23,250 bases of DNA, from IMG/VR virus record IMGVR_UViG_3300050821_014505, positions 1 to 23,250 of that record; one strand, given 5' to 3'. Numbering within the stretch: position 1 is the stretch's first letter; every line of letters begins with the position of its first letter. The position numbers and the translations under genes are program-made. Shown in pieces: positions 11,819 through 22,110 of this stretch. The notes beneath the pieces are model-generated. The model had not been told where the DNA came from. It made no database searches and worked only from the letters and a program-made list of their open reading frames with translations. Origin of the DNA: a virus.

Positions 11819-12150
11819 TACATCACCGCCCTCTGGATTGGCCTGGGCGCGCCGCTAGATCCCATTTGACCCAGCGCATTGGCAAGCATCTGGGGGCGAT
11901 TTCCCACAGGGGGTTGTTGACCCTGATTGAGAGGCGGTAATGATCCACCCATAGGCGGTTGCCCAACACCCGGCCGCAACTGCGCCTCCCCTGGCGTCGA
12001 ATAACGAGGCTGCATGTTCGTGATCGGCGCCGACCCCATGACCGGATAGCTGGCGCCGGGGATGCCGCTAGCCGTGCCCGCCGGCGGGCTGTAGGCCGGC
12101 GGCTTCACGTTTCCACCGATCGTCCCGGGTCGAATATTGTTTGCGCCCAT
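11818..12150 (-). CDS. Pro/Gly-rich hypothetical protein (110 aa)
   Basis: The chosen ATG at 12150 has a GGGGCGA site just upstream. A longer in-frame ATG at 12198 would extend further into the acetyltransferase gene. The product is disordered-looking and Pro/Gly/Gln-rich (VKPPAYSPPAGTASGIPGAS, GVGQPPMGGSLPPLNQGQQP). It has a short helical segment near the end (RPQMLANALGQMG). It overlaps the upstream gene by 83 bases in another frame and couples to the next by TAATG. The composition suits a flexible virion linker or assembly protein. The function is unknown. Confidence 0.55.
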   Translation of the reverse strand: MGANNIRPGTIGGNVKPPAYSPPAGTASGIPGASYPVMGSAPITNMQPRYSTPGEAQLRPGVGQPPMGGSLPPLNQGQQPPVGNRPQMLANALGQMGSSGAPRPIQRAVM

Positions 12151-12586
12151 GAAATCGCCCCACATTGAGAAATCGGCACTCCTCGCGGAGCATGCCATAG
12201 ATGATCAGGTCGTCGCCGTTTGGAAGGATGCTGCGCACGAGTCCCTCGCGGATGAAGCCCAGGTGCTCATCGAATCGCTGCGCCGGTAGGTTGCGTGCAG
12301 GCACTACGCCGGTCACACGCCGGCATCCGAGCTGCTCAAAGGGGTAGCGGAACCCCTCCCCGAGGAAAGACTTGCATAGCCAACGGCGTCCGGGAAGAGC
12401 CGCGACATGCATGTGAATATCGGTGCGCGTGTAGTTCTGATAAATCACCCCGGCCAGTAGCGCTCCGGTCTCATTCGCAAGCCCAATCGCTGTGTATGGC
12501 GTAGTCCCAAACTCAAACACGTCTATCTTGGAGGCCACCCATTCCGCGACGCGCTTGTCCTGGTTGGCGATGATGAACCTACCCAT
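12068..12586 (-). CDS. GNAT-like acetyltransferase of phage tail operons
   Basis: The 172-residue product starts at ATG, overlapping the hub gene by eight bases. It shows the GNAT layout: a strand pair (YTAIGLANETGALLAGVIYQ), the central strand DIHMHVAALPGRRWL, a helix with FEQLGCRRVTGVVPARN, and the C-terminal RFDEHLGFIREGLVRSI followed by DLIIYGML. The 'LGFxREG...DxxxYGML' end is typical of GNAT proteins recurrent in podovirus structural operons. GNATs transfer acyl groups from acetyl-CoA to amines; the substrate here is unknown. After EECRFL the frame continues about 30 residues into sequence shared with the next gene, perhaps because an ancestral stop was lost. Homologs, as I remember them, stop near this point. 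Confidence 0.7.
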   Translation of the reverse strand: MGRFIIANQDKRVAEWVASKIDVFEFGTTPYTAIGLANETGALLAGVIYQNYTRTDIHMHVAALPGRRWLCKSFLGEGFRYPFEQLGCRRVTGVVPARNLPAQRFDEHLGFIREGLVRSILPNGDDLIIYGMLREECRFLNVGRFHGRKQYSTRDDRWKREAAGLQPAGGHG

Positions 12587-14216
12587 AGAATAGACTGCCC
12601 TTCTTATATAGGAAGTTGGTGGATTGCCACTTTGCCGTCACGCCGTTGACGTTGGCCTTCATCTGCATGGACGACGAATAGCCCGTGCCGTTGAGACCGA
12701 TCCATGGCTTGACGATCTGCTGGTTGTCTCCCCACAGAGAAGAGTTCCACATCGCAACATTCCATTGCGCGCCCGTCACAGTGGATACCGGGACTGTTTC
12801 GGGAAAGGCCGTCGCGCTAAAGTCGGTCAGTAGGTTGATGACGACTGTGAGAGATCCGCCGACCTGGAATATGGGCTGACACTGCGTGTAGATTTTTAGT
12901 AGCTCTGGGTCTCCGAAATACGAGAATGCCGGCTGAGCGGTGATGATGTATGAATTTCCATCATCACTATTTCCACTGTCTCCCTGTCCAACATATCCAG
13001 CGGCCCCAAAGTAGATGTTGTTGCTCATCAACTCGAAACAGAACGGATTCCAAGATGAATTCAGCTGCCCCCACGTGCTCCAGGCCCCAGAAATCGTATT
13101 CTGTACCCACTCGAAACTCGTCGTGGCAGAGGTCGGCACGTTGACTACGATCTTCTGCCCGGTCGGATATAGGACGACATGCCAGCCGAAGTTTTGTCCG
13201 AATGCCTGCGCATCACTGTTGATGGCCGTCCGGATCTTATCTGTGATGGCGACTGTCGGCTGAGAGCGATCGGTGACAAGGGCCTTCGAAATGGGTATCA
13301 GGCCATCAGTTGTCAACAGTGCTGCATCCGAGCCAATCTTAGCCCATGTCCGGCGCCCTACCGCGAGTGGTGAGCCGATCTGGAAGTGACCCACCTCGAA
13401 CCACGTCGATGACTGGGCTGGATCGAAGCCCTGAAACATCACGACTTCGCCCTGAGTCGAGACGAAGGCGATGTAGTCGGTGATGCCCGCAGAGTTATCG
13501 ACGCTATTGGTCGCAATGCACGCGAGCGATCCGCCCTGGTTGAAATTCGGCCCCATCGGCAGGAGCGTCAGTGCACCGGCGAACACATTTTGAGGCAAGT
13601 AGTACACATTCAGAGTGCCCGCCTGGACGAACCAGAGGCGGCTTTTATACCGAACAACCTGGCTCAGGGATGTGAGCGGGGAAGGTCCGGAAGTCCATGC
13701 GTACGGCGAGCTCGAGCCAGTAATCGAATGCCACGTCCCGTCGTAGATCAGGGGATTGTCAACGCCATTGACCACCACGAGCGCTTCGGCGCTACCCGTG
13801 CCCAACATAGTCCAGTCGTATTGGACGTTGGTGACTGGCTGGACGGTATTACTTACCCCACCAACAATAGCCGCGCCGGCAGAGCCGCCGCCGGCGTTGT
13901 CAACTCTGTATATCGACCCCACTCCGGCAGATATGACGCCAGCATAGAGCTGATTTAGCCCACTCAAGGCGTTGTATGCCATCACCGAGAGAGCGTTTCC
14001 AGTGAAGGTCGCTAGCGTAGATTTACCGCGCCTCAGCTCCACCCAGCTCGGTTGGCAGAACATGTTGTCTAGCACGATGGCGTCCGTCTCGGGCATGTTC
14101 GCCAGGGCGTCTCGTGCGTTGATACCTCCGACTGGCGCTGCGAGCGTATAGCCCTGCGCCTCAGGCTGGGCCGCCTGCTGGAGACGCATCTGGCGGATGG
14201 CGGAGGCGCGCGGCAT
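12579..14216 (-). CDS. Putative tail hub/nozzle protein, beta-rich (545 aa)
   Basis: The product opens with a basic helix (MPRASAIRQMRLQQAAQPEA). It then shows APVGGINARDALANMPETDA followed by IVLDNMFCQPSWVELRRGKS, a signature I associate with podovirus beta-propeller tail proteins. The remainder is a long series of strands with Gly/Asn turns and repeated Trp (YDWTMLGTGSAEALVVVNGV, TDYIAFVSTQGEVVMFQGFD, SFEWVQNTISGAWSTWGQLN), as in multi-bladed propellers such as P22 gp10-type hubs or T7 gp12-type nozzles. Its position directly after the adaptor gene supports a role at the head-tail junction. The specific homology is an inference from pattern and order. Confidence 0.7.
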   Translation of the reverse strand: MPRASAIRQMRLQQAAQPEAQGYTLAAPVGGINARDALANMPETDAIVLDNMFCQPSWVELRRGKSTLATFTGNALSVMAYNALSGLNQLYAGVISAGVGSIYRVDNAGGGSAGAAIVGGVSNTVQPVTNVQYDWTMLGTGSAEALVVVNGVDNPLIYDGTWHSITGSSSPYAWTSGPSPLTSLSQVVRYKSRLWFVQAGTLNVYYLPQNVFAGALTLLPMGPNFNQGGSLACIATNSVDNSAGITDYIAFVSTQGEVVMFQGFDPAQSSTWFEVGHFQIGSPLAVGRRTWAKIGSDAALLTTDGLIPISKALVTDRSQPTVAITDKIRTAINSDAQAFGQNFGWHVVLYPTGQKIVVNVPTSATTSFEWVQNTISGAWSTWGQLNSSWNPFCFELMSNNIYFGAAGYVGQGDSGNSDDGNSYIITAQPAFSYFGDPELLKIYTQCQPIFQVGGSLTVVINLLTDFSATAFPETVPVSTVTGAQWNVAMWNSSLWGDNQQIVKPWIGLNGTGYSSSMQMKANVNGVTAKWQSTNFLYKKGSLFYG

Positions 14217-14219
14217 GCA

Positions 14220-15194
14220 CTATGACCCGAACCCGGTATCCGGCACGTTCTGAGCGTTCAGCAGCCTGATTCCCGATGCCCGAGCATTCAGTGGCAGATT
14301 CCGGCCCATCACCACGCGCCCGGTAACCGTCGCCAGCTTATCGTCGTATTCCTGCCACTCATCCGCGTACGCCATACCGAGCGCCTTGAGCACGCGCCAC
14401 TTGAGAGATAGTGTAATGAGGTCCTCGGGTAGCACCGAGACGTCTGTATCGAGCACAAATGCCGATTGGACGGCAACTGCGGGAGATGCGGCAACCGCCA
14501 CCCAGTTCACGGACGCGTACTCGAATACAAGCTGATCAGATATCGGACTGGCCTGCCCTGTCGGCACGTATGGCGCGGGATTGATCAGTATCTGCCCGTC
14601 CGTGAGCCGGTATCTCAACCGAGGGCCAACAGGGCTGATGCCCGACTTGAGCACCTGCCACTCCTGAGCGTTCACAGGTCCGAGCAGCTGCCAGCGGAAG
14701 TTACGATCCCATCCTGTTTGCGGGATGAAGTAGTTGAGGTCGGACGGCTGCGGATACGCCTCCTGCCCGAACGCGAGCGATGAATCAACGCCCGTGACGC
14801 TGATCGTCGGGACGGTTGAATTCTGGGACATCGTCACAGTGCCAGCGCCGGCATTGACGGATGCCACCATCGAGTCATTGAGAGCGAAAGTGGAGGCGAC
14901 CTGCCACCCAGACTGAACGCCGGCCAGATTCGTGCCAGTGACGTTCGTGATGACCGGAGAGTTAGCGGTGAACGTGCCAGTGAACGGGCCAATTCCGATT
15001 AGGTTGAACAGAAACTGCTTGCGCAGAGGGGGCCAGTGGTCCGCCGCCTTGGTCGCATCCCTCAGCTCAAACCCAGCGCGATTGGCTAGCGCGAACGCCT
15101 TGATGACGTTCGAGTCAGTGTTACCCGCGACGGTCGACGGCGGCGCGAGGCCTATCTCACCGAATGCCTGCTGGACAAGCGTTAGGAGTGACAT
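14220..15194 (-). CDS. Putative head-to-tail adaptor protein (324 aa)
   Basis: The ATG forms a TGATG junction with the upstream gene. The N-terminal helix (MSLLTLVQQAFGEIGLAPPS) and the C-terminal helices (LEDLITLSLKWRVLKALGMA-like region, then ADEWQEYDDKLATVTGR) match tail-tubular-A/adaptor proteins that sit under the portal. A separate beta-rich insertion occupies about residues 70-140 (PFTGTFTANSPVITNVTGTN, ALNDSMVASVNAGAGTVTMS), probably an exposed Ig- or barrel-like domain. An aromatic DLNYFIPQTGWDRNFRWQ section follows, then RLRYRLTDGQILINPAP. The fold call rests on this helical bracket and on its place before the hub gene. Confidence 0.7.
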   Translation of the reverse strand: MSLLTLVQQAFGEIGLAPPSTVAGNTDSNVIKAFALANRAGFELRDATKAADHWPPLRKQFLFNLIGIGPFTGTFTANSPVITNVTGTNLAGVQSGWQVASTFALNDSMVASVNAGAGTVTMSQNSTVPTISVTGVDSSLAFGQEAYPQPSDLNYFIPQTGWDRNFRWQLLGPVNAQEWQVLKSGISPVGPRLRYRLTDGQILINPAPYVPTGQASPISDQLVFEYASVNWVAVAASPAVAVQSAFVLDTDVSVLPEDLITLSLKWRVLKALGMAYADEWQEYDDKLATVTGRVVMGRNLPLNARASGIRLLNAQNVPDTGFGS

Positions 15195-16042
15195 CAGGCA
15201 TCTTCCTTAGCCTCGGCAGACTCGACGATATCGCGCGTGCGCTTAGAGGTTTTCACTGACGCCGTCTTGAGAGGCTGAGGCGCTGGAGGAGCGGCGGACT
15301 GCATCATCGGCACCTGTTGCCGCATACCCTGCGCAAACTGCGCCTGCATGTTCACGATAGTCGCCTCTAGCTGCTTGATCTTCTCGTCCTGGAGATTGAC
15401 CTTCTCCTCGGCCCTGGACGCCTTGGCCTGCTCGCTGGCGACGATGCGATTACGAGCACGCTCGTCAACCGCGGCCCGCGCCAGGTCGCGGTACTTGCGT
15501 CCGCCCATGATGGCTCCCGCATTGGCGTCGGACAGCGCGGCGAGAGCCTCGACCGTTGGAATGCTAAGCAGCTTCAGGGATTCGGCGTACGAGCGCGTAA
15601 CGACGCCCCATTCCTCGATCGGCCATCCGTCATCCGCTTTCTCGCCGCGGCGCATGAAGCGCGCCCAGGCGTTCGGATATTTCGCTGTGTCCGGTCGATC
15701 GCCATTGGCGCACTGCTGCAGCACTTCCCAAGTGGTGTGGTATTCGCCTGACTCGGGATCGATCGCAGTGTCGTACTCGATCCCGGAGGCCAGGGTATCC
15801 CAGACGGTCTTAGAGTTTCCCGGAGCAACGATGCGCACCCAGATCCGATCCTGAAAGATCGGAAATCCCATGCTCTCCGTGAGGTACTCCATCGGATACG
15901 GCTTGATGTAGAACTCAACAATCAACTCGCCGTCGAGACCCGCTCCGCCCTCTCCAGAACGGCCATAAAGCACCCTACTCGAGTCGGCCTTGGGACTTTC
16001 GAGCATGCGCGGTGGCGCGAACTGGGGTAGATCGATACTCAT
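15194..16042 (-). CDS. Conserved phage protein with C-terminal coiled coil (282 aa)
   Basis: The chosen start is ATG at 16042, which overlaps the upstream stop as ATGA; a longer start at 16057 lies inside the enzyme gene. The product begins MSIDLPQFAPPRMLESPKAD. A beta-rich part has GELIVEFYIKPYPMEYLTES and IFQDRIWVRIVAPGN, then WARFMRRGEKADDGWPIEEW. Residues about 200-245 form a charged coiled coil (EEKVNLQDEKIKQLEATIVN). The tail is Pro/Ala-rich and then basic (KTASVKTSKRTRD). I recognise the pattern as a protein often found near the adaptor in podovirus genomes, without known function. A connector or assembly role is inferred. Confidence 0.65.
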   Translation of the reverse strand: MSIDLPQFAPPRMLESPKADSSRVLYGRSGEGGAGLDGELIVEFYIKPYPMEYLTESMGFPIFQDRIWVRIVAPGNSKTVWDTLASGIEYDTAIDPESGEYHTTWEVLQQCANGDRPDTAKYPNAWARFMRRGEKADDGWPIEEWGVVTRSYAESLKLLSIPTVEALAALSDANAGAIMGGRKYRDLARAAVDERARNRIVASEQAKASRAEEKVNLQDEKIKQLEATIVNMQAQFAQGMRQQVPMMQSAAPPAPQPLKTASVKTSKRTRDIVESAEAKEDA

Positions 16043-17970
16043 AGTGATTGTCTCCAACAGAAGTTTGCGCCAACCTCGACCTCTCCAAACACTTCCTCGA
16101 CCGCGCGCTTGACGCCAAACTGAGGATAGTCCGGGTTGTCGTAGTCATGTCCTGAAATGAAGCCGCCCGGTTTTATCTTCGGCAGCCACGCCTTGATATC
16201 CGCTAGGCAGCATTCGTAGGAGTGGTCTGCATCAATAAAAACGAAGTCCAGTGACTCGTCTGCCACATCTTGCGCCGCCTCCAATGAAGTCATTCGCCAA
16301 ACAGATGCGCGGTCTCCGGCGAATCGAACTGCCCCTACTGCGGACTGGCAATAGCCATCCTGCTCGTCCTGATTGAGAGAGCTATGGAAGTCACCAAGAC
16401 CGTCCTCGCCCTTACCGGCCGCCCAAGGATCTACCATCAACAACTTCATATCGATCCTGTTTAGGAGAAGACGCGACGAGAGCGCGCCGGTGAAGACGCC
16501 AATTTCAGCGCCCACTGGGTGAGATGTATCCTTGAGCCAATGAAGTATCTGCTGGGCGCGCTCATCGACAGATAGTGGCTTCAATAGGGATGCAATATGC
16601 GGTATGAGGCCTTCTCCGAACACGCGAATCGTGCAGCCATTTTCTAGGAGTAGCGGAATATGCTCCTTGAAGTCCTCTGCTTGGGTAACCATCCAGGGGG
16701 CGCAGCGGAATGAGCGACCACCTACGCGCACATCGAGCGTCTTTTCGTCATCATTCAGCGGCTGAGGGTAGGCATGGTGCGCATCTTCCGCGTAACTCGA
16801 GTCGAAACCGAATAGGTCTATGTGGCGGTGGCCGAGCAGGTAGGCGAGGACGATGGCCTTCATCCCGACAGTGGTGCCGCCGCCGATGCTCGGGACGCCG
16901 GCCTTGTCCAGTAGGGGTTGGTAAGACGACAGCGCCGCGTGCCAGCAGACCAGACTATCTCCTGCCATCTGTAGTACCGAAGGATGGCACTGAGAGGCGT
17001 AATACTTTGGGCAAAACTCCCCTATGGGCACGAAATCCAAGTTTTCCCGGCGCGCGTCCAGTAGTACATGAGCGTCCGGGATGATCCCATTACGCCATAG
17101 ATAGTCCCACGTGTTTCCAGTGGCATAGACCTTCGCGCCTGACATCTGCATGCCGCGGATGTAAAACAGGTTGTCGGCTAGACTTGGTCCGCCGCCCACG
17201 ATGATCGCGGTGCGCGTGTCATTGCCGGGCTCGACCCATGCGCAATCCCTCTCCATTGCCGACAGCACATTGGCTCGTAGCTGCTCATCCGGCACGTTGG
17301 ACTGCACGACCCACTCGATCGCCGAGCCGCCGCCGACCTTCCAAACTTCAGGTACCCAACCCGAGGTGACCTCGTGAGGACGCGGGTGTCCATGAAAGAA
17401 AACAACCGATGTTCCACGTGGAATTTGCGTGCGGCAGTCGACTTTGTAGCTGCGGAATTTGCCGGGGAATAGATCCTGTAGCCAGTTAGGGCCTTCATGG
17501 ACACGCTCTATCCATGCTTGGTCACCACCCTCGATTATTGGCTTTCCTGAGTCGATCCAGTTCTGCCAGAACCAATCCGCATCCCCTCCTGGCCCGGCCT
17601 CCCACGCCATGACGCTAGACTGCATGCCCTTCGGTCTGTAGGCATCTCGCAAAACGGCGAAATCACCATCGTACCGCGCGATCTCGTCCAACGGCCCGGT
17701 GATGACCGTGTCGAGATCGAAATACAGTACGCGCTCACCCTCCGGAAATGCCTCCGGCGAGAACAGGTAGAGCTTGTTCCACCATCCCTCAACCCCCTCG
17801 GGTAGAGGCTTGGTTTTGATGCCAGCCTCCAACCCGGTGGGATCATCCGTGAAGCACGTGAAGTCACCCGCGAACCCCGCGGGCAGGTTCCGCCGCACCA
17901 TGTCAAACAGGGTGTTGACATACTCAGGGCCGTACAGCTTGCCCCATTTGACGCAACAAACTCTCAACAT
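16039..17970 (-). CDS. Glycosyltransferase-DUF115-methyltransferase fusion (643 aa)
   Basis: The best start is ATG at 17970, with GGAG seven bases upstream. Domain 1 (residues 1 to about 230) resembles a nucleotide-sugar glycosyltransferase: NLPAGFAGDFTCFTDDP, WWNKLYLFSPEAF, and VLYFDLDTVITGPLDE with a DxD motif at 85-87, plus FFHGHPRP near 191-198. Domain 2 (about 254-460) matches DUF115/MptE-like proteins: TAIIVGGGPSLADNL, VYATGNTWDYLWRNGIIPDA, SIGGGTTVGMKAIVLAYLLG and HIDLFGFDSSY. Domain 3 (about 485-643) is a class I SAM methyltransferase of the Methyltransf_24 type: VGAEIGVFTGALSSRLL, LLMVDPW, LDFVFIDADHSYECC and PGGFISGHDYDN. It lies between capsid and connector genes. The target is unknown: virion protein, DNA or host glycan. 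Confidence 0.8.
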   Translation of the reverse strand: MLRVCCVKWGKLYGPEYVNTLFDMVRRNLPAGFAGDFTCFTDDPTGLEAGIKTKPLPEGVEGWWNKLYLFSPEAFPEGERVLYFDLDTVITGPLDEIARYDGDFAVLRDAYRPKGMQSSVMAWEAGPGGDADWFWQNWIDSGKPIIEGGDQAWIERVHEGPNWLQDLFPGKFRSYKVDCRTQIPRGTSVVFFHGHPRPHEVTSGWVPEVWKVGGGSAIEWVVQSNVPDEQLRANVLSAMERDCAWVEPGNDTRTAIIVGGGPSLADNLFYIRGMQMSGAKVYATGNTWDYLWRNGIIPDAHVLLDARRENLDFVPIGEFCPKYYASQCHPSVLQMAGDSLVCWHAALSSYQPLLDKAGVPSIGGGTTVGMKAIVLAYLLGHRHIDLFGFDSSYAEDAHHAYPQPLNDDEKTLDVRVGGRSFRCAPWMVTQAEDFKEHIPLLLENGCTIRVFGEGLIPHIASLLKPLSVDERAQQILHWLKDTSHPVGAEIGVFTGALSSRLLLNRIDMKLLMVDPWAAGKGEDGLGDFHSSLNQDEQDGYCQSAVGAVRFAGDRASVWRMTSLEAAQDVADESLDFVFIDADHSYECCLADIKAWLPKIKPGGFISGHDYDNPDYPQFGVKRAVEEVFGEVEVGANFCWRQSL

Positions 17971-18398
17971 ATAAATTCTCCAATGCCTAGGTGCTTTCTG
18001 GATCTTCTTCTGGAGCATTGGATACAGCACCGCCTGCCAGCATAAAATGCTGTGTTTTCCTCATCCATAGCATGCCCATGCTTGCAATGACTCTGCGGAT
18101 TTGAACTCCTTTGCAAGTTAATGGATGGTCCAGTACCTCTCTGAAAATTTACCCTCTGAGGCACCGCTTCAAGATGCTCTGGATTTACGCAGTTTCTGAC
18201 GTGGCACAAATGGTCAATGACCAATGACCTATCTATCGATTGCAGATTGTGATGCATGCGATAAGCGAAGCGATGAGCGTATTCATTCTCCTGACGCTCG
18301 TTCCTAACTTTCCCGTATCCATTCTGGGAAATGGCGCCTTTCCATAGAACGCATCCCGAAGGGTCAGTGATGCATCGCTTCGCGAATCGCTCAATCAC
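17964..18398 (-). CDS. HNH homing endonuclease
   Basis: It begins at GTG directly after the TGA of the accessory protein gene and overlaps the next start by seven bases. The 144-residue product has the HNH_3-type layout: an N-terminal GCVLWKGAISQNGYGKV, AHRFAYRMHH, and then the nuclease core IDHLCHVRNCVNPEHLEAV with Asp62-His63, Asn72 and His75 as the metal/catalytic residues. Cysteines 65 and 70 are likely structural. A C-terminal zinc-knuckle-like segment is HCKHGHAMDEEN followed by RRCCIQCSRRR. Such proteins nick or cut a conserved site and promote their own spread. The region looks less GC-rich than its neighbours, consistent with acquisition. It is free-standing, since no intron or intein split is seen around it. 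Confidence 0.9.
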   Translation of the reverse strand: MIERFAKRCITDPSGCVLWKGAISQNGYGKVRNERQENEYAHRFAYRMHHNLQSIDRSLVIDHLCHVRNCVNPEHLEAVPQRVNFQRGTGPSINLQRSSNPQSHCKHGHAMDEENTAFYAGRRCCIQCSRRRSRKHLGIGEFIC

Positions 18399-19196
18399 TC
18401 AGGTTCCTTCTAACTGACCGTGGTTGGGATAGTAGACCAGCACCAAGCTCTGGGTGGACGTGGTTGTCGAGGTCGCGAGCCGGCTGCCTAGGATCGCCCC
18501 GCCGGCCGACGCTGTGCCATAGATACGCCCCGCTGTGCCCGACACATAGCCGGCGGTATTGGGGGTGATCTGCACCGCCGTCTTCAACGTCCAGGCGCGC
18601 CCGCTGATCTGGTACCACGCGACCGTGATCTGGTTGGCCTGGGAGGCCAGGCCAGTGCCGTCATAGAGAGGCGTGATGGGATAGACTGTGCCCTGAGTGA
18701 GCGACTGAGCCGTTGCTCCCACTGCAGCGCTCGATATCGCCACAGCGACCGGAACACTCGTCTTCTGGCTCGTGCCCTTCGCGGGCAACGTGGTTATGGA
18801 GTAAGTGGCGTCCCACTGCACCAGAGTGCCGACCGGCAGCGCGTTCGACACCGGATTGCGCAGCGCGATGAACTCGCCCCATCCCAGAGTTGGCTCATAC
18901 GCCGTGATGATTTGGCCCGGCATCGGCGCAAAGATGGGAGCCGGCAGAACGGGGCTCGTGGCCGTACCCGCCGTCGTCGCAGCAGACTCAGGTTTGAGGA
19001 AGACCGTGTTGAAGCCCGCATAGGGTCCAGGCAAGTCCGCCCACACCTTGCCGATGTCGTAGTCTCCCAACTGATTATTCTGCGCCACCCAGTTGTACGC
19101 CACGCCATTCGAGATGCTCTGAGGAAACCCCGGTGGCACGTAGGTCTGTGACGCGAACGGCGAGACCGGGGTCGCTTTGAGTGTGATGATTCCCAT
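18399..19196 (-). CDS. Probable capsid accessory/decoration protein (265 aa)
   Basis: It starts at ATG behind GGAGAG, ten bases after the capsid protein stop. The product is beta-rich and Thr/Ser/Ala/Pro-rich, starting MGIITLKATPVSPFASQTYV. Motif-like stretches include NQLGDYDIGKVWADLPGPYA and WGEFIALRNPVSNALPVGTL, followed by VQWDATYSITTLPAKGTS. A C-terminal series of short strands (GYVSGTAGRIYGTASAGGAI) ends LVLVYYPNHGQLEGT. The gene directly after a major capsid gene often encodes a decoration, cement or head-fiber protein, and the composition fits. I recognise it only as a frequent neighbour of this capsid type; the biochemical role is not shown. Confidence 0.6.
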   Translation of the reverse strand: MGIITLKATPVSPFASQTYVPPGFPQSISNGVAYNWVAQNNQLGDYDIGKVWADLPGPYAGFNTVFLKPESAATTAGTATSPVLPAPIFAPMPGQIITAYEPTLGWGEFIALRNPVSNALPVGTLVQWDATYSITTLPAKGTSQKTSVPVAVAISSAAVGATAQSLTQGTVYPITPLYDGTGLASQANQITVAWYQISGRAWTLKTAVQITPNTAGYVSGTAGRIYGTASAGGAILGSRLATSTTTSTQSLVLVYYPNHGQLEGT

Positions 19197-19206
19197 GTGT
19201 CTCTCC

Positions 19207-19994
19207 TTAAGCGGCCAGGAGGCCCTGGAGGAAGCGATTGCTCGTGGTCATGTTGCCGGCGAACCCGACGAGCTTGACCATCGCGTCCTGGTTGACCGCG
19301 AAACGCTCATCCCCCAGCGGGGCGAAGTTTCGATCCTGGTGTGGCCGGAAGAACAGGTATTTCGTGTTCAAGAAGAACATCGTGTTCACTGGCGCCCCGC
19401 CGCCGAAACCGCCATCCAGTACCACGTCGCAGTTCATGTACTTCAACGTCTGGAAGCCGAGCTCTGCCATGTCCTCATCGCCGATGCGCTGGAGGGCCTG
19501 CAAGCTCTCCAAGTAGTAGCGATAGAAGTTGTTATCGGCAACGATCAGGTCCGGCGCATCCGCACCGCGCACCAACTGCAGGTAAACGCGGTTCATGTAG
19601 GTCTGAATGGTGGCAGTACTCACCGCCGCGCCACCAGTGGTCAGGCCGCTGAAGAATACGTTGCGCCAGAACTGCCAGACCGATGGATCTATACCGCCAA
19701 CAATGCCCGACGAAGGTGTCGCGGAGACAAGCAGCTGCAGGCCACCAATCTGCCGCCCGCCATCAGCAGTACCATTTGAGTAGATGTCGAGAGCGACGTT
19801 GTTTGTGAGGGTCTGCTCGGCGTTCTCGATGCGCCCTTCCAGCAGATCGATGATCGCCTCTTCGCCAGAGTTCTGCAGCATCTCAAGGCCTGAGATGGAG
19901 ACGGCGACAGCGGCCTGAGCATAGTTGTACTCAGCACCCGTGAATACGTCGGACGGGCTAATGTTCAGAACCTCGTACCCGGAATAGCGCTTAT
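19207..19994 (-). CDS. Major capsid protein, exon 2 (residues 66-327)
   Basis: This is the larger part of the major capsid protein. It begins with the last two bases of codon 66, followed by KRYSGYEVLNISPSDVFTGA, AVAVSISGLEMLQNSGEEAI and a long run typical of a podovirus HK97-like capsid family (FWRNVFFSGLTTGGAAVSTA, LVRGADAPDLIVADNNFYRY, YMNCDVVLDGGFGGGAPVNT, RFAVNQDAMVKLVGFAGNMT). The open frame continues upstream to about 20646, but that part is intron sequence and does not resemble capsid protein. Joining to exon 1 at 20720 restores the expected ENGTYKRYSGYE. The full protein would have 327 residues, a normal size for the family. It assembles the icosahedral shell on the scaffold protein encoded just upstream. 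Confidence 0.88.
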
Positions 19995-20719
19995 CAGTAT
20001 TGTTACGGTAGGTATTTAATGGTACCTTCCGGGTGTGACATTTCTGCACACCTCTGCGTGTTACCACGCAGCTCAGAGCACACCTTCCCTTTCGGGGACT
20101 GCACCTGCTCGTTACACACGCACCGCTTGCGCGGGCTTGGCTCGGTATTGCCCTTCCATCTCTGGAGTGGGGTATCCACCGACTTCGCAGTCTTCTCAAT
20201 TCACACTTAGCGGAGAGAGCATGCCTTCTTTTGAGTATTTCGCCGGTCTGTTTGATGGCGAAGGATTCGTTCGCATCGACAATCACTTCCTGCAGCCTGT
20301 CACAGGTAATCCGAGGTACCAGTTGCACGCGGGCATAGCCATGACCCACAAACCAGCCGTCAAACTCTGCTTCGACACTTTCGGCGGGTTTTACAAGGGA
20401 GATGACTGCTTCAAGAAGAAGATGCCGAGTAGCCGCACCATCTACCGATGGTCCGTAGTCAGCAACGGCGCTTACGACTTTCTGAAAGCCATCCAGCCTT
20501 TCTTCATCGTCAAGAAGGAGCAGGTAGATATCGCAGTTGCCTTTCAAGAGCACATCAGGATGTACAAGAGATACATGGTCGGCGCGCATGGAGACCTGGC
20601 ACTTAGAGCCAAGATCTTTGCGGAGCGTGAGACCATGTGCGAACAAATCAGACTCCTGAAGAAAGAAGAATTTCCGTTAGTTGTGAGTGACCCTATTTCG
20701 GCTTAAGCAGCCACGGCAA
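19995..20719 (-). ncRNA. Group I self-splicing intron in the capsid gene
   Basis: The 725-base segment interrupts the capsid gene between T of codon 66 and the AT that completes it. Its 3' part (19995-20220) carries the P4/P5-type core motif of group I introns, CAATACCGAGCCAAGCCC (20150-20133), preceded by GGG. The motif is nearly identical to that of cyanobacterial tRNA-Leu introns. GNRA hairpins flank it: GACU-GCGA-AGUC (20192-20181), CCGC-GCAA-GCGG (20134-20123) and CUGCGUG-GUAA-CACGCAG (20071-20054). The intron ends in G at 19995, as expected. Exon ACCU|U (20723-20719) can pair with AGGGU (20694-20690), placing a U-G pair at the 5' splice site. The full P3/P7 fold was not worked out. A LAGLIDADG gene lies inside on the other strand. 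Confidence 0.87.
20221..20706 (+). CDS. LAGLIDADG homing endonuclease, antisense inside the intron
   Basis: The 161-residue product has one LAGLIDADG motif, EYFAGLFDGEGFV (residues 5-17), with Glu14 in the metal-binding position. Later parts fit the family fold: YQLHAGIAMTHKPAVKLCFD, FGGFYKG, IYRWSVVSNGAYDFLKAIQP and FFIVKKEQVDIAVAFQEH. One motif at this length implies a homodimer of the I-CreI kind, cutting a roughly palindromic site. I chose ATG at 20221 because it follows GGAGAG and puts the motif at the N-terminus. An ATG at 20035 would translate the intron's catalytic core. The gene is on the plus strand, opposite the capsid gene and the intron, so it cannot be read from the structural transcript. 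The stop is 13 bases inside the 5' splice site. Confidence 0.88.
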   Translation: MPSFEYFAGLFDGEGFVRIDNHFLQPVTGNPRYQLHAGIAMTHKPAVKLCFDTFGGFYKGDDCFKKKMPSSRTIYRWSVVSNGAYDFLKAIQPFFIVKKEQVDIAVAFQEHIRMYKRYMVGAHGDLALRAKIFAERETMCEQIRLLKKEEFPLVVSDPISA

Positions 20720-20915
20720 AGGTGCCGTTTTCCTGATAGTTGAGTTCCTGCACGATCGTCCGACCTCCAGACACGGGCTTAACACGCCCCCGTGCCCTGA
20801 GCCGATACAACAGTGCGTTATTTTTTGTTACGTTATCTGCCAACTTTCCCGTGCGATTACGCAGGGTCGTGGTCACGATTTCCGTCATCGTAGCCGACGG
20901 GTTGATGAGTGCCAT
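20720..20915 (-). CDS. Major capsid protein, exon 1 (residues 1-65)
   Basis: This is the N-terminal arm of the capsid protein. The start is ATG at 20915 behind GGGAG with nine-base spacing; an in-frame ATG at 20963 lies inside the scaffold gene and precedes no conserved sequence. The exon reads MALINPSATMTEIVTTTLRN, ALLYRLRARGRVKPVSGGRT and VQELNYQENGT, then the first base of codon 66 (T at 20720). Without splicing, the frame would run five codons into the intron (FAVAA) and stop at 20703, giving a useless 70-residue peptide. The scaffold gene ends 22 bases upstream of the start. Confidence 0.85.
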
Positions 20916-20937
20916 GTATGTATACTCCCGAAAAGGT

Positions 20938-22110
20938 TTAGACGCGCCCTCGAGCATCCTCAAAGGCGGCTTTCAATTCATCGCGAATGGAGCGGGTACC
21001 TGCGCCGTTGGCTTGCGGGGGTGAGCCCGCGCCGGTGCGCAGTGATCCACTCTTACGGCGCGCAGCTTCCGCCTTGCGTCGCTTTTCCTCCGCGGCCTGA
21101 GCGGCGGCTTGCGCCTGCTGCTCGATCGCTTTAGAGGTCTCGGGATGAGCCTTGACGGCGAGTTGATAGGCTTCTTCGAGCGTCGATGCATTCCCCGCCG
21201 ACAGGATGGCGGCCATTAGGCCGTTCACTGTTTCGAAGTGGGGAAAGGCCGGTTGGCCATTTGCATCGAGTTTCGAGCGGAAGGCTTCTACTTCGCTGTT
21301 GACCGCTTGCATCTCCGCTTGTTCGCGCTGCTGCGCCTCGGCCCGCTGGCGAGCCTGAAATCGTTGATCGACGGCCCTATCTACGAGCTGGTCGAGTGGA
21401 ACGTTGGGCTGCTGTGGGTTTTGAGGCTGAGCGCTGGACTGCTGGGGTTGCATCCCCAGTGCCCGCAAATCGACTCCGTTCTGGGCAGCCAGCTGGCGAA
21501 AGATGTTCGCGCGATTGCCCGGGTCGGAATTGTGAATCTGGTTGACGATGCCGAGGAATTCTCGGAACAGGGCGACTGGGTTGCCGCCGCGGGCCTGGAT
21601 CATGGGCGCGAATTCGTTCGCGGCCTGCATGAACTGATTGCCGACGCCACGGATCTCGTCGTGCTCGGTGATGCGGCGGTGAGCTTCCTGCTCCCGGCGC
21701 GCGACGATCTGCTGCGCGGCGGGCGGGAGCTGGGACCAGAGCTGCTTTTCTTGGGCGCTCCAGCTTTGAGGGGCAGGTAGGGCTACTTCGGCAGGTCTGG
21801 ACTCTCCGCCCACTGCCCCCACGGGACTTCTTTGGGCGCCTGTATCGTCTGCTGAAGCTCTTTGCTGATCGGCGGGTACGGCGGCGGCATCTCCACGTGC
21901 GAACTTTCCGTCGGCTCCGCGCTGTCTACCGCCATGTACTTGGTCGGATTCTGAGGTTGAGCCAGATTGGTTAGCGTTCGGTATCCCATCGCCACTCCCA
22001 TCCCTCGCATTGATCTCATCGCGCGCAGCCTCGATCTCCTCGCGGATGCTACGCTCTTTCGGCTCCGGCGTGTCGTCGGCGACGACTTCTTCTTGTGTGC
22101 GCTCAGCCAT
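20938..22110 (-). CDS. Scaffold-like capsid assembly protein (390 aa)
   Basis: It lies immediately upstream of the capsid gene and starts within a TAATG junction. The product is very charged and Gln/Ala-rich. A disordered N-terminal third contains GGRQRGADGKFARGD, then QSWSAQEKQLWSQLPPAAQQ and IVARREQEAHRRITEHDEIR (about 130-165), followed by helices. A coiled region (AIEQQAQAAAQAAEEKRRKA) precedes a basic stretch and the C-terminal helix SIRDELKAAFEDARGRV (374-390). Position, composition and a short basic/helical C-terminus are hallmarks of scaffolding proteins, whose C-terminal helix docks on the capsid protein. A related helix, SIREEIEAAR, occurs at residues 21-30. A protease fusion was not seen. 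Confidence 0.8.
   Translation of the reverse strand: MAERTQEEVVADDTPEPKERSIREEIEAARDEINARDGSGDGIPNANQSGSTSESDQVHGGRQRGADGKFARGDAAAVPADQQRASADDTGAQRSPVGAVGGESRPAEVALPAPQSWSAQEKQLWSQLPPAAQQIVARREQEAHRRITEHDEIRGVGNQFMQAANEFAPMIQARGGNPVALFREFLGIVNQIHNSDPGNRANIFRQLAAQNGVDLRALGMQPQQSSAQPQNPQQPNVPLDQLVDRAVDQRFQARQRAEAQQREQAEMQAVNSEVEAFRSKLDANGQPAFPHFETVNGLMAAILSAGNASTLEEAYQLAVKAHPETSKAIEQQAQAAAQAAEEKRRKAEAARRKSGSLRTGAGSPPQANGAGTRSIRDELKAAFEDARGRV

Follow-up and report, generated by a model that had tools for sequence, protein, structure and literature searches.

Why would a phage place the gene for a sugar-modifying enzyme among the genes that build its head, and on which molecule would such an enzyme act? 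This question is raised by a 23,250-base viral contig (IMG/VR record IMGVR_UViG_3300050821_014505; the whole stretch is referred to as the window), in which a late operon of a podovirus takes up the minus strand between about 23100 and 2250. One gene of this operon encodes a 643-residue protein, hereafter the enzyme, in which a GT8-like glycosyltransferase, a DUF115 domain and an S-adenosylmethionine (SAM) methyltransferase are fused. We propose, with a probability of about 0.6, that, as part of a glycosylation cassette of the Maf type carried by the phage itself, it acts on the head decoration protein; this substrate is a candidate, and sugar and linkage are putative. The argument rests on the following features:

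16039-17970, minus strand: the enzyme, a putatively soluble GT8-like/DUF115 (Maf-like)/SAM methyltransferase fusion of 643 residues (open frame, PF01973, PF13578, phrog_1962).
17332-17970, minus strand: domain 1, GT8-like glycosyltransferase, residues 1-213 (profile and structure matches).
16585-17292, minus strand: domain 2, DUF115/Maf_flag10-like glycosyltransferase, residues 227-462 (PF01973, match to Maf 5mu5).
16042-16575, minus strand: domain 3, putative SAM O-methyltransferase (Methyltransf_24), residues 466-643 (PF13578, Foldseek).
18399-19196, minus strand: head decoration protein, 265 residues, directly downstream of the major capsid protein (MCP) gene and the candidate acceptor (predicted fold, phrog_29386 relatives, lineage).

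The gene runs as a single open frame on the minus strand from an ATG at 17970 to a stop codon at 16039-16041. The initial annotation had, without giving a strand, described a 643-residue protein that joins a DxD-type sugar transferase, a DUF115 and a methyltransferase domain and lies between capsid and connector genes; the composition and order of the domains as well as the position of the gene proved correct. The profile searches of each domain and the structure prediction of the fusion that it had proposed were carried out. In the predicted model (predicted local distance difference test score, pLDDT, 87.5; predicted template modelling score, pTM, 0.50), GT8-like, Maf-like and methyltransferase folds follow one another. 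DUF115 and Methyltransf_24 were matched in Pfam, while domain 1 gave no match to the Pfam GT8 model PF01501 at E 0.1 and is therefore termed GT8-like and not a GT8 member.

Domain 1 matches the glycosyltransferase family phrog_1962 of PHROGs at residues 7-211 (E 3.1e-33) and contains the motifs DLD (residues 85-87), GGDQ (148-151) and FFHGHPRPH (from 191), with D85 and D87 invariant in a 20-row alignment. When a profile of these 20 sequences was compared with the PDB, the sugar transferase of the initial annotation could be refined to a GT8-like enzyme related to Skp1-GalT (6mw5, E 6.7e-7), GlyE and glycogenins, the alignment lining up at the DxD and at a late glycine/proline motif. The predicted model matches glycogenin (Z 18.0 over 195 residues, root-mean-square deviation, rmsd, 2.8) and LgtC (Z 17.7) by VIA, a comparison in which families outside the listed matches stay possible throughout. 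Domain 1 thus combines a GT8 fold with a DxD motif.

Domain 2 is recognised by the Pfam family PF01973 (MptE-like/DUF115) at residues 252-395 (E 3.2e-19; 69.8 bits, curated cut-off 34.6). Its best solved match is the Magnetospirillum Maf protein 5mu5, both by profile (E 1.4e-14) and by VIA (Z 21.8 over 222 residues, rmsd 3.3), and the model contains the central Maf fold. The assignment of DUF115 to Maf-type protein glycosyltransferases is therefore supported by sequence and by predicted fold. According to a study on Maf, PF01973 is the central domain of these proteins and resembles the sialyltransferase Cst-II (PMC11339370). The whole-protein Maf layout with its degenerate N-terminal Rossmann-like domain was considered and rejected, because residues 1-213 are GT8-like, those from about 440 to 643 form a methyltransferase, and the Maf match covers residues 227-462 only; the enzyme is consequently not filed as a Maf flagellin enzyme. 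The Pfam name MptE-like, a weak profile match to the M. jannaschii HPPK (MptE) structure 8sd5 (E 0.004) and a Foldseek match to the same protein would fit a pterin diphosphokinase instead of a sugar transferase. This identity is very improbable, since Maf 5mu5 is by far the better match and the partner domains and genes are sugar enzymes.

Domain 3 matches PF13578 (Methyltransf_24) at residues 489-610 (E 7.6e-17). Foldseek ranks the sugar O-methyltransferases MycF, SpnH, CalS11 and MeT1 high, and by VIA, TrmR and other O-methyltransferases tie with MeT1. The ratio of non-synonymous to synonymous differences (pN/pS) between the enzyme and its relative in locus L005 (compared loci carry L numbers) is 0.19 for the whole protein and 0.196, 0.188 and 0.187 for domains 1, 2 and 3, and amounts to 0.23 and 0.33 in comparison with L002 and L006, indicating that all three parts are maintained by purifying selection. 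A likely membrane segment was not found in the enzyme (highest 19-residue hydropathy 1.35). The protein is most likely a soluble, cytoplasmic enzyme with a putative glycan-building activity.

All 12 of 12 confirmed viral contigs carry a relative with 52-80% identity (full-length in 10, cut by the start of the contig in 2) and, as far as each contig reaches, at the same place. Together with pN/pS values of 0.19-0.33, this shows that the three-domain frame is not due to chance. A profile of 24 aligned enzymes retrieved 510 relatives from viral contigs, of which the best 80 were kept; among the 50,697 isolate phage records, no match extends over 80% of the enzyme. Wherever the new loci from the enzyme searches reach the MCP gene, a profile-recognised decoration ORF (open reading frame) lies between MCP and enzyme, except in L165, where an unrecognised ORF takes the decoration position.

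The decoration protein itself was recognised by its predicted fold (pLDDT 74.7), which resembles capsid stabilising or decoration chains of XM1 (Z 10.3), Sf11 (9.8), TW1 (9.6) and Pam3 (9.2) by VIA, and by its position directly after the MCP; likeness to a solved decoration chain and position thus coincide at 18399-19196. Six of eight family members checked, including Mx8p49, match phrog_29386 ('virion structural protein'). The protein of the window has no PHROG match and no relative in the 50,697 isolate phage records.

In the window, the genes around the enzyme slot are arranged in the order MCP, decoration protein, HNH gene, enzyme, a gene of unknown function (u15), SU10-like adaptor and tail protein. 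The following served for comparison with the decoration protein:

19207-20052, minus strand: MCP, 3' part (phrog_9953 major head protein, E 1.1e-101; contiguous MCP in L002).
15194-16042, minus strand: u15, a conserved head/neck gene, Mx8p50-like by position, whose ATG overlaps the enzyme stop (ATGA) (synteny).
14220-15194, minus strand: SU10-type adaptor/head-tail connector (PF24175, E 1.2e-4, below its cut-off; phrog_6013 tail protein).
12579-14216, minus strand: tail tubular B/stabilisation-like protein (tail B), the backbone marker (phrog_5107, E 2e-88; tblastn).

The label of phrog_5107 is amidase; the tblastn matches of tail B are records annotated as phage stabilization or tail tubular proteins.

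Across related loci, the presence of the enzyme follows the lineage of the decoration protein and not those of MCP, adaptor or tail. A tree was computed for each of these four lineages, with tail B representing the tail, and changes of the label 'enzyme present' were counted on each. The loci came from scans of viral contigs that kept the best 80 relatives (of 272 in the first scan, of 510 with the enzyme profile, and of 216 and 110 in two further MCP scans). Because the set includes loci found via the enzyme itself, its ratio of loci with and without enzyme is not a frequency; among the first 80 loci found via the MCP, the enzyme was present in 32, absent in 38 and undecidable in 10. With 71 rows including the window, the label changed twice on the decoration tree, in which L075 is represented by a probably non-homologous ORF, and five times on the MCP tree. 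Four changes were counted on the adaptor tree (68 rows), which rejects a single enzyme clade (p 0.0005). From the larger set, 15 loci that do not cover the slot, 8 without MCP and 4 with a short MCP were dropped, leaving 285 loci, of which 224 are non-identical. Decoration and MCP trees of 171 rows required 3 and 11 changes, respectively; for the decoration, MCP and tail B trees, the counts were 1, 11 and 14 with 149 rows, and 2, 12 and 14 with 104 dereplicated rows. A single enzyme clade was rejected for both tail B (p 7e-47) and MCP (p 9e-85) with the 104 rows. Shared ancestry of the whole genome was dismissed as the cause of the link, since the trees of MCP, adaptor and tail either are incompatible with a single clade or demand far more changes.

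Fifty-three of the 224 rows (46 without and 7 with enzyme) had no decoration match and were omitted from the trees; they were then compared by blastp. All 7 rows with enzyme were nearest to enzyme rows, and 44 of the 46 without were nearest to enzyme-less rows, the other 2 having no match. The 7 enzyme loci with an unrecognised decoration ORF were closest to each other. A typing of decoration proteins by two profiles (decP and decM) was discarded as unreliable at depth, with 18 'P' loci lacking and 3 'M' loci carrying the enzyme, mostly at weak scores, and was replaced by the trees and by nearest-neighbour tests.

In the latter, tree-free approach, the nearest protein was determined for each of 149 non-identical loci among loci with a tail B of less than 50% identity. 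The enzyme state of this neighbour was the same in 149/149 cases for the decoration protein, against 114/149 for the MCP and 107/149 for u15. When the neighbour was taken from loci with an MCP of less than 60% identity, agreement was 139/149 for the decoration protein, 78/149 for tail B and 49/149 for u15. A swap of the cassette is seen directly in the 20 pairs of loci whose MCPs are >85% identical but which differ in the enzyme: the median identity of their decoration proteins is 0.29-0.31, compared to 0.65-0.69 for u15 and 0.64-0.69 for tail B. Among the structural proteins, the decoration protein is also the best correlate of DUF115 distance over 56 rows (0.73, partial correlation 0.45; MCP 0.37, u15 0.67, tail B 0.66). 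Within the enzyme-type decoration clades, the enzyme is missing in only 1 of 86 rows (L262, a 4.6-kb contig). As enzyme and decoration protein are inherited and swapped together, the enzyme probably builds a methylated sugar on the decoration protein. The claim of the initial annotation that a virion protein is decorated is thereby narrowed to one candidate, whose glycan, methyl group, sugar donor and role as acceptor are putative.

Several observations weigh against this conclusion. The MCP tree of 71 rows did not reject one enzyme clade (p 0.20), and u15, the other neighbour of the enzyme, also co-varies with DUF115 (partial correlation 0.32). The MCP and u15 flanks are conserved and the interval between them is not, which favours block transfer by crossovers; decoration gene and enzyme could then move together without a functional tie, and this weakens the evidence from trees, nearest neighbours and swaps alike. 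In our view, the rarity of enzyme loss (1/86) despite deep divergence argues against pure hitch-hiking, but deletion as such may simply be rare. The Ser+Thr share of decoration proteins is 0.211 with enzyme (85 rows) and 0.178 without (86 rows), a difference that would fit O-glycosylation, although descent confounds the comparison. The flanking domains are different in the Maf enzymes of flagellin, whose donor, a nonulosonic acid, may not apply here. Moreover, the nucleotide-sugar pyrophosphorylase family (NTP_transferase) was found in 0 of 12 long contigs, which are possibly fragments, so that the phages would depend on the host for sugar donors.

The same observations bear on the possibility that the enzyme glycosylates another phage protein, such as the MCP, a tail fibre or a head fibre, and that the decoration gene is merely a linked neighbour. 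The gene lies among all head and tail genes, flank-driven recombination would carry neighbours together, and the co-variation of u15 points in the same direction. We nevertheless consider this alternative unlikely, because the enzyme is not tracked by any of the lineages that were compared (MCP, adaptor and tail B).

The make-up of the slot adds to the picture of a glycosylation cassette. Ten other fusions that were examined first end in FkbM (5), in Methyltransf_24 (3) or without a methyltransferase (2). Among 92 non-identical enzyme loci, 39 have the arrangement GT8-DUF115-MT24 and 12 GT8-DUF115-FkbM (in one of these, the GT8 part matched in two pieces), 28 carry DUF115 without a GT8-like domain, and 13 are minor or contig-cut forms. 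All 28 ORFs without the GT8-like domain match PF01973 at E 0.001, and 16 of them carry Methyltransf_23. Extra sugar genes in enzyme slots include FdtA (L162, L267) and C-methyltransferases (L154, L155, L159). Fused GT2 domains occur in L155, L162 and L267 (the match in L155 is below the cut-off), GT4-like and separate GT8-like genes in L202 and L224 (matches below the cut-offs), and a separate methyltransferase gene in the slots of L202 and L269. FdtA, C-methyltransferase, GT2, GT4-like and FkbM were seen solely in enzyme-bearing slots. In the 132 loci without enzyme, the gap between MCP and u15 has a median of 675 bases; 16 of these slots exceed 1300 bases and contain, on inspection by eye, decoration ORFs, HNH-type ORFs or small ORFs. 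A slot with a GT8-like domain alone was not found among the 224 loci. Judged from these sequences, the enzyme end of the cassette is modular with DUF115 as its constant core, although the presence of DUF115 in all cassettes is partly by construction, since having this domain is one of the criteria for the label. In L268 (1208-1915) and L269 (1855-2562), a DUF115 domain lies upstream of the MCP as well, and L269 has a second one in the usual slot.

An enzyme of this kind could also modify the host surface (O-antigen, capsule or flagellin) and bring about superinfection exclusion or serotype conversion, like some temperate-phage glycosyltransferases. DUF115 is best known from flagellin modification (PMC11339370), and phage glycosyltransferases can act on host glycans (PMC12619734). 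The position of the gene inside a late head operon and the lack of a likely membrane segment argue against such a role, which would not explain the tracking of the decoration protein either. An integrase (PF00589) was detected in 1 of the 12 long contigs; this makes lysogenic conversion unlikely for most of them, although absences from possible fragments are weak evidence. Taken together, we regard a host-surface target as quite unlikely.

Even less credence is given to a participation in phage DNA hypermodification. Phage glycosyltransferases that act on modified bases do exist (PMC12619734). In the 12 long contigs, with the same weakness of absences, no gene of the thymidylate synthase family (base hydroxymethylase) was found (0/12), and the tie to a capsid protein would be left unexplained. 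The Maf and GT8 folds are, moreover, not known from DNA glucosyltransferases.

If the enzyme acts on the decoration protein, as we favour, the following sequence of events can be envisaged. Judged by its place in the head operon, the enzyme would be made late in infection, and the decoration protein would be modified before or during capsid assembly. The DUF115/Maf-like domain may attach a first sugar to Ser/Thr residues of this protein, drawing on a nucleotide-sugar of the host, in the way Maf proteins act on flagellin; the GT8-like domain would then add a further sugar and the SAM methyltransferase would cap the glycan by O-methylation. In related phages the Maf-like core is retained while the remaining parts are exchanged; each phage would thus have its own unit of decoration protein and glycan, inherited and swapped as one cassette.

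Three further features of the window accompany these genes:

17964-18398, minus strand: HNH endonuclease gene located between those for decoration protein and enzyme, with an overlap of 7 bases at the enzyme start (PF13392, phrog_826).
20703-20963, minus strand: open frame with the 5' part of the MCP (match to the N-terminal end of the unsplit MCPs of L002, L005 and L010).
12068-12586, minus strand: GNAT acetyltransferase among the tail genes (phrog_4470).

The HNH gene is also present at this place in L005 and L017, and no match was found in L002. Next to the decoration gene, HNH endonuclease genes are seen repeatedly, whether or not the slot contains the enzyme (window, L194, L197, L201, L334 and L312; those of the window and L334 were checked by Pfam) and could be drivers of slot exchange. 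Compared with the contiguous MCPs of L002, L005 and L010, the MCP gene of the window (19207-20963, minus strand) is split by about 650 bases, and insertions affect this part of the gene in L006 and L007 as well. An Rfam search of the split MCP for an intron gave no match, and the plus-strand ORF 20035-20706 had no Pfam match. In L006, L008, L010 and L013, interruptions or partial duplications affect the tail B gene; in L008 and L010, query residues ~110-166 match twice. The GNAT gene is kept in most loci, and Mx8 (p53), BUCT555 and ppBjS10J-1 have acetyltransferase genes at this place. Small Ser/Thr/Ala-rich ORFs, possibly extra decoration or fibre proteins, lie between enzyme and u15 in a subgroup of loci (L114, 9124-9525; similar in L115-L124, L163 and L164, the latter with two in a row).

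On a broader scale, there is an even chance that the window represents a large, mostly uncultivated group of Mx8-like podoviruses with interchangeable capsid-coat cassettes, consisting of a decoration protein, a dedicated Maf-type glycosyltransferase and exchangeable tailoring enzymes (GT8, GT2, GT4-like, O- and C-methyltransferases, FdtA), which are swapped between backbones. If so, these phages would change the sugar coat of their heads as bacteria change their O-antigen or flagellin glycans. Phages would have adopted the Maf/DUF115 fold of flagellin glycosylation for a glycosyltransferase dedicated to capsid decoration, and, with 510 enzyme-profile relatives in viral contigs, head glycosylation would be widespread and modular outside the mycobacteriophages. 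A named acceptor and a simple assay would be provided as well, and soluble fusions of protein glycosyltransferase and methyltransferase are possible tools for glyco-engineering. This raises the question why a phage of environmental bacteria, which has no antibodies to evade, would keep swapping the sugar coat of its head; candidate benefits are particle stability, attachment to mucus or biofilms, and escape from grazers or extracellular enzymes.

How does this system compare with those already known? Virion glycosylation in the mycobacteriophages Che8, Corndog and Myrna was reportedly described by Freeman et al. in Cell Host Microbe in 2023. In the available parts of the accounts of these phages, their glycosyltransferases modify the phages' own capsid and tail proteins (PMC12363180, PMC11652166, PMC12619734), and in those parts neither a Maf/DUF115 core nor a fused methyltransferase nor a decoration cassette is mentioned; phage group and host are different as well. 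For the Xanthomonas jumbo phage XacN1, at least two glycoproteins were detected, for which the authors suggested phage enzymes (PMC5852040); a XacN1 locus matches the GT8-like domain (E 3e-26), but with the glycosyltransferase domain only and in one of its glycosyltransferase ORFs, and no decoration cassette is described for it. In the searched literature, outside of which most subscription papers lie, DUF115 was not joined with phage glycosyltransferases, and no glycosylation cassette of this kind for a decoration protein was found among the closest papers, as judged by titles and the start of abstracts. This literature is in line with the view of the initial annotation that such a module has so far gone undescribed in this phage type, although virion glycosylation as such is known from mycobacteriophages.

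The head module of Myxococcus phage Mx8 (Mx8p48-p54) shares with the window the order MCP, decoration-type virion structural protein, p50, tail proteins and GNAT. Unlike the window, Mx8, ppBjS10J-1, BUCT555 and MW202489 have no annotated glycosyltransferase in the slot. PmgQ of Enterobacteria phage P1 (NC_005856.1, 81476-82120) and HdmD of P7 (NC_050152.1, 83857-84501) share about 30% identity with domain 1 (E 7e-14 and 7e-15), in a match that covers the glycosyltransferase domain only. PmgQ is labelled with a putative morphogenetic function in some records, and its relationship to the GT8-like domain suggests that glycosylation of the virion may lie behind this label. A detectable DUF115 relative among the isolates is limited to Caulobacter phage CcrColossus (one phage with two records), namely gp126 (E 3e-3), which is located directly after the tail genes. 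The next five genes include a nucleotide-diphospho-sugar transferase, a methyltransferase and a family 9 glycosyltransferase, with the lysis genes further on; CcrColossus, although a very different phage, has a comparable glycan cluster among its late genes (L347, gp126-gp131).

The likeness to the Maf flagellin glycosyltransferases lies in the central PF01973 domain and its predicted fold (222 residues of 5mu5), and the proposed shared logic is that of a soluble enzyme placing sugars on Ser/Thr of a protein that forms a surface array. Maf has other N- and C-terminal domains (PMC11339370), whereas the core is flanked here by GT8-like and methyltransferase domains; moreover, Maf acts on flagellin, whereas the proposed acceptor here is a capsid decoration protein. 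Thus, the outcome, probable virion glycosylation, is a known one, while the machinery and its genetic logic appear to be new.

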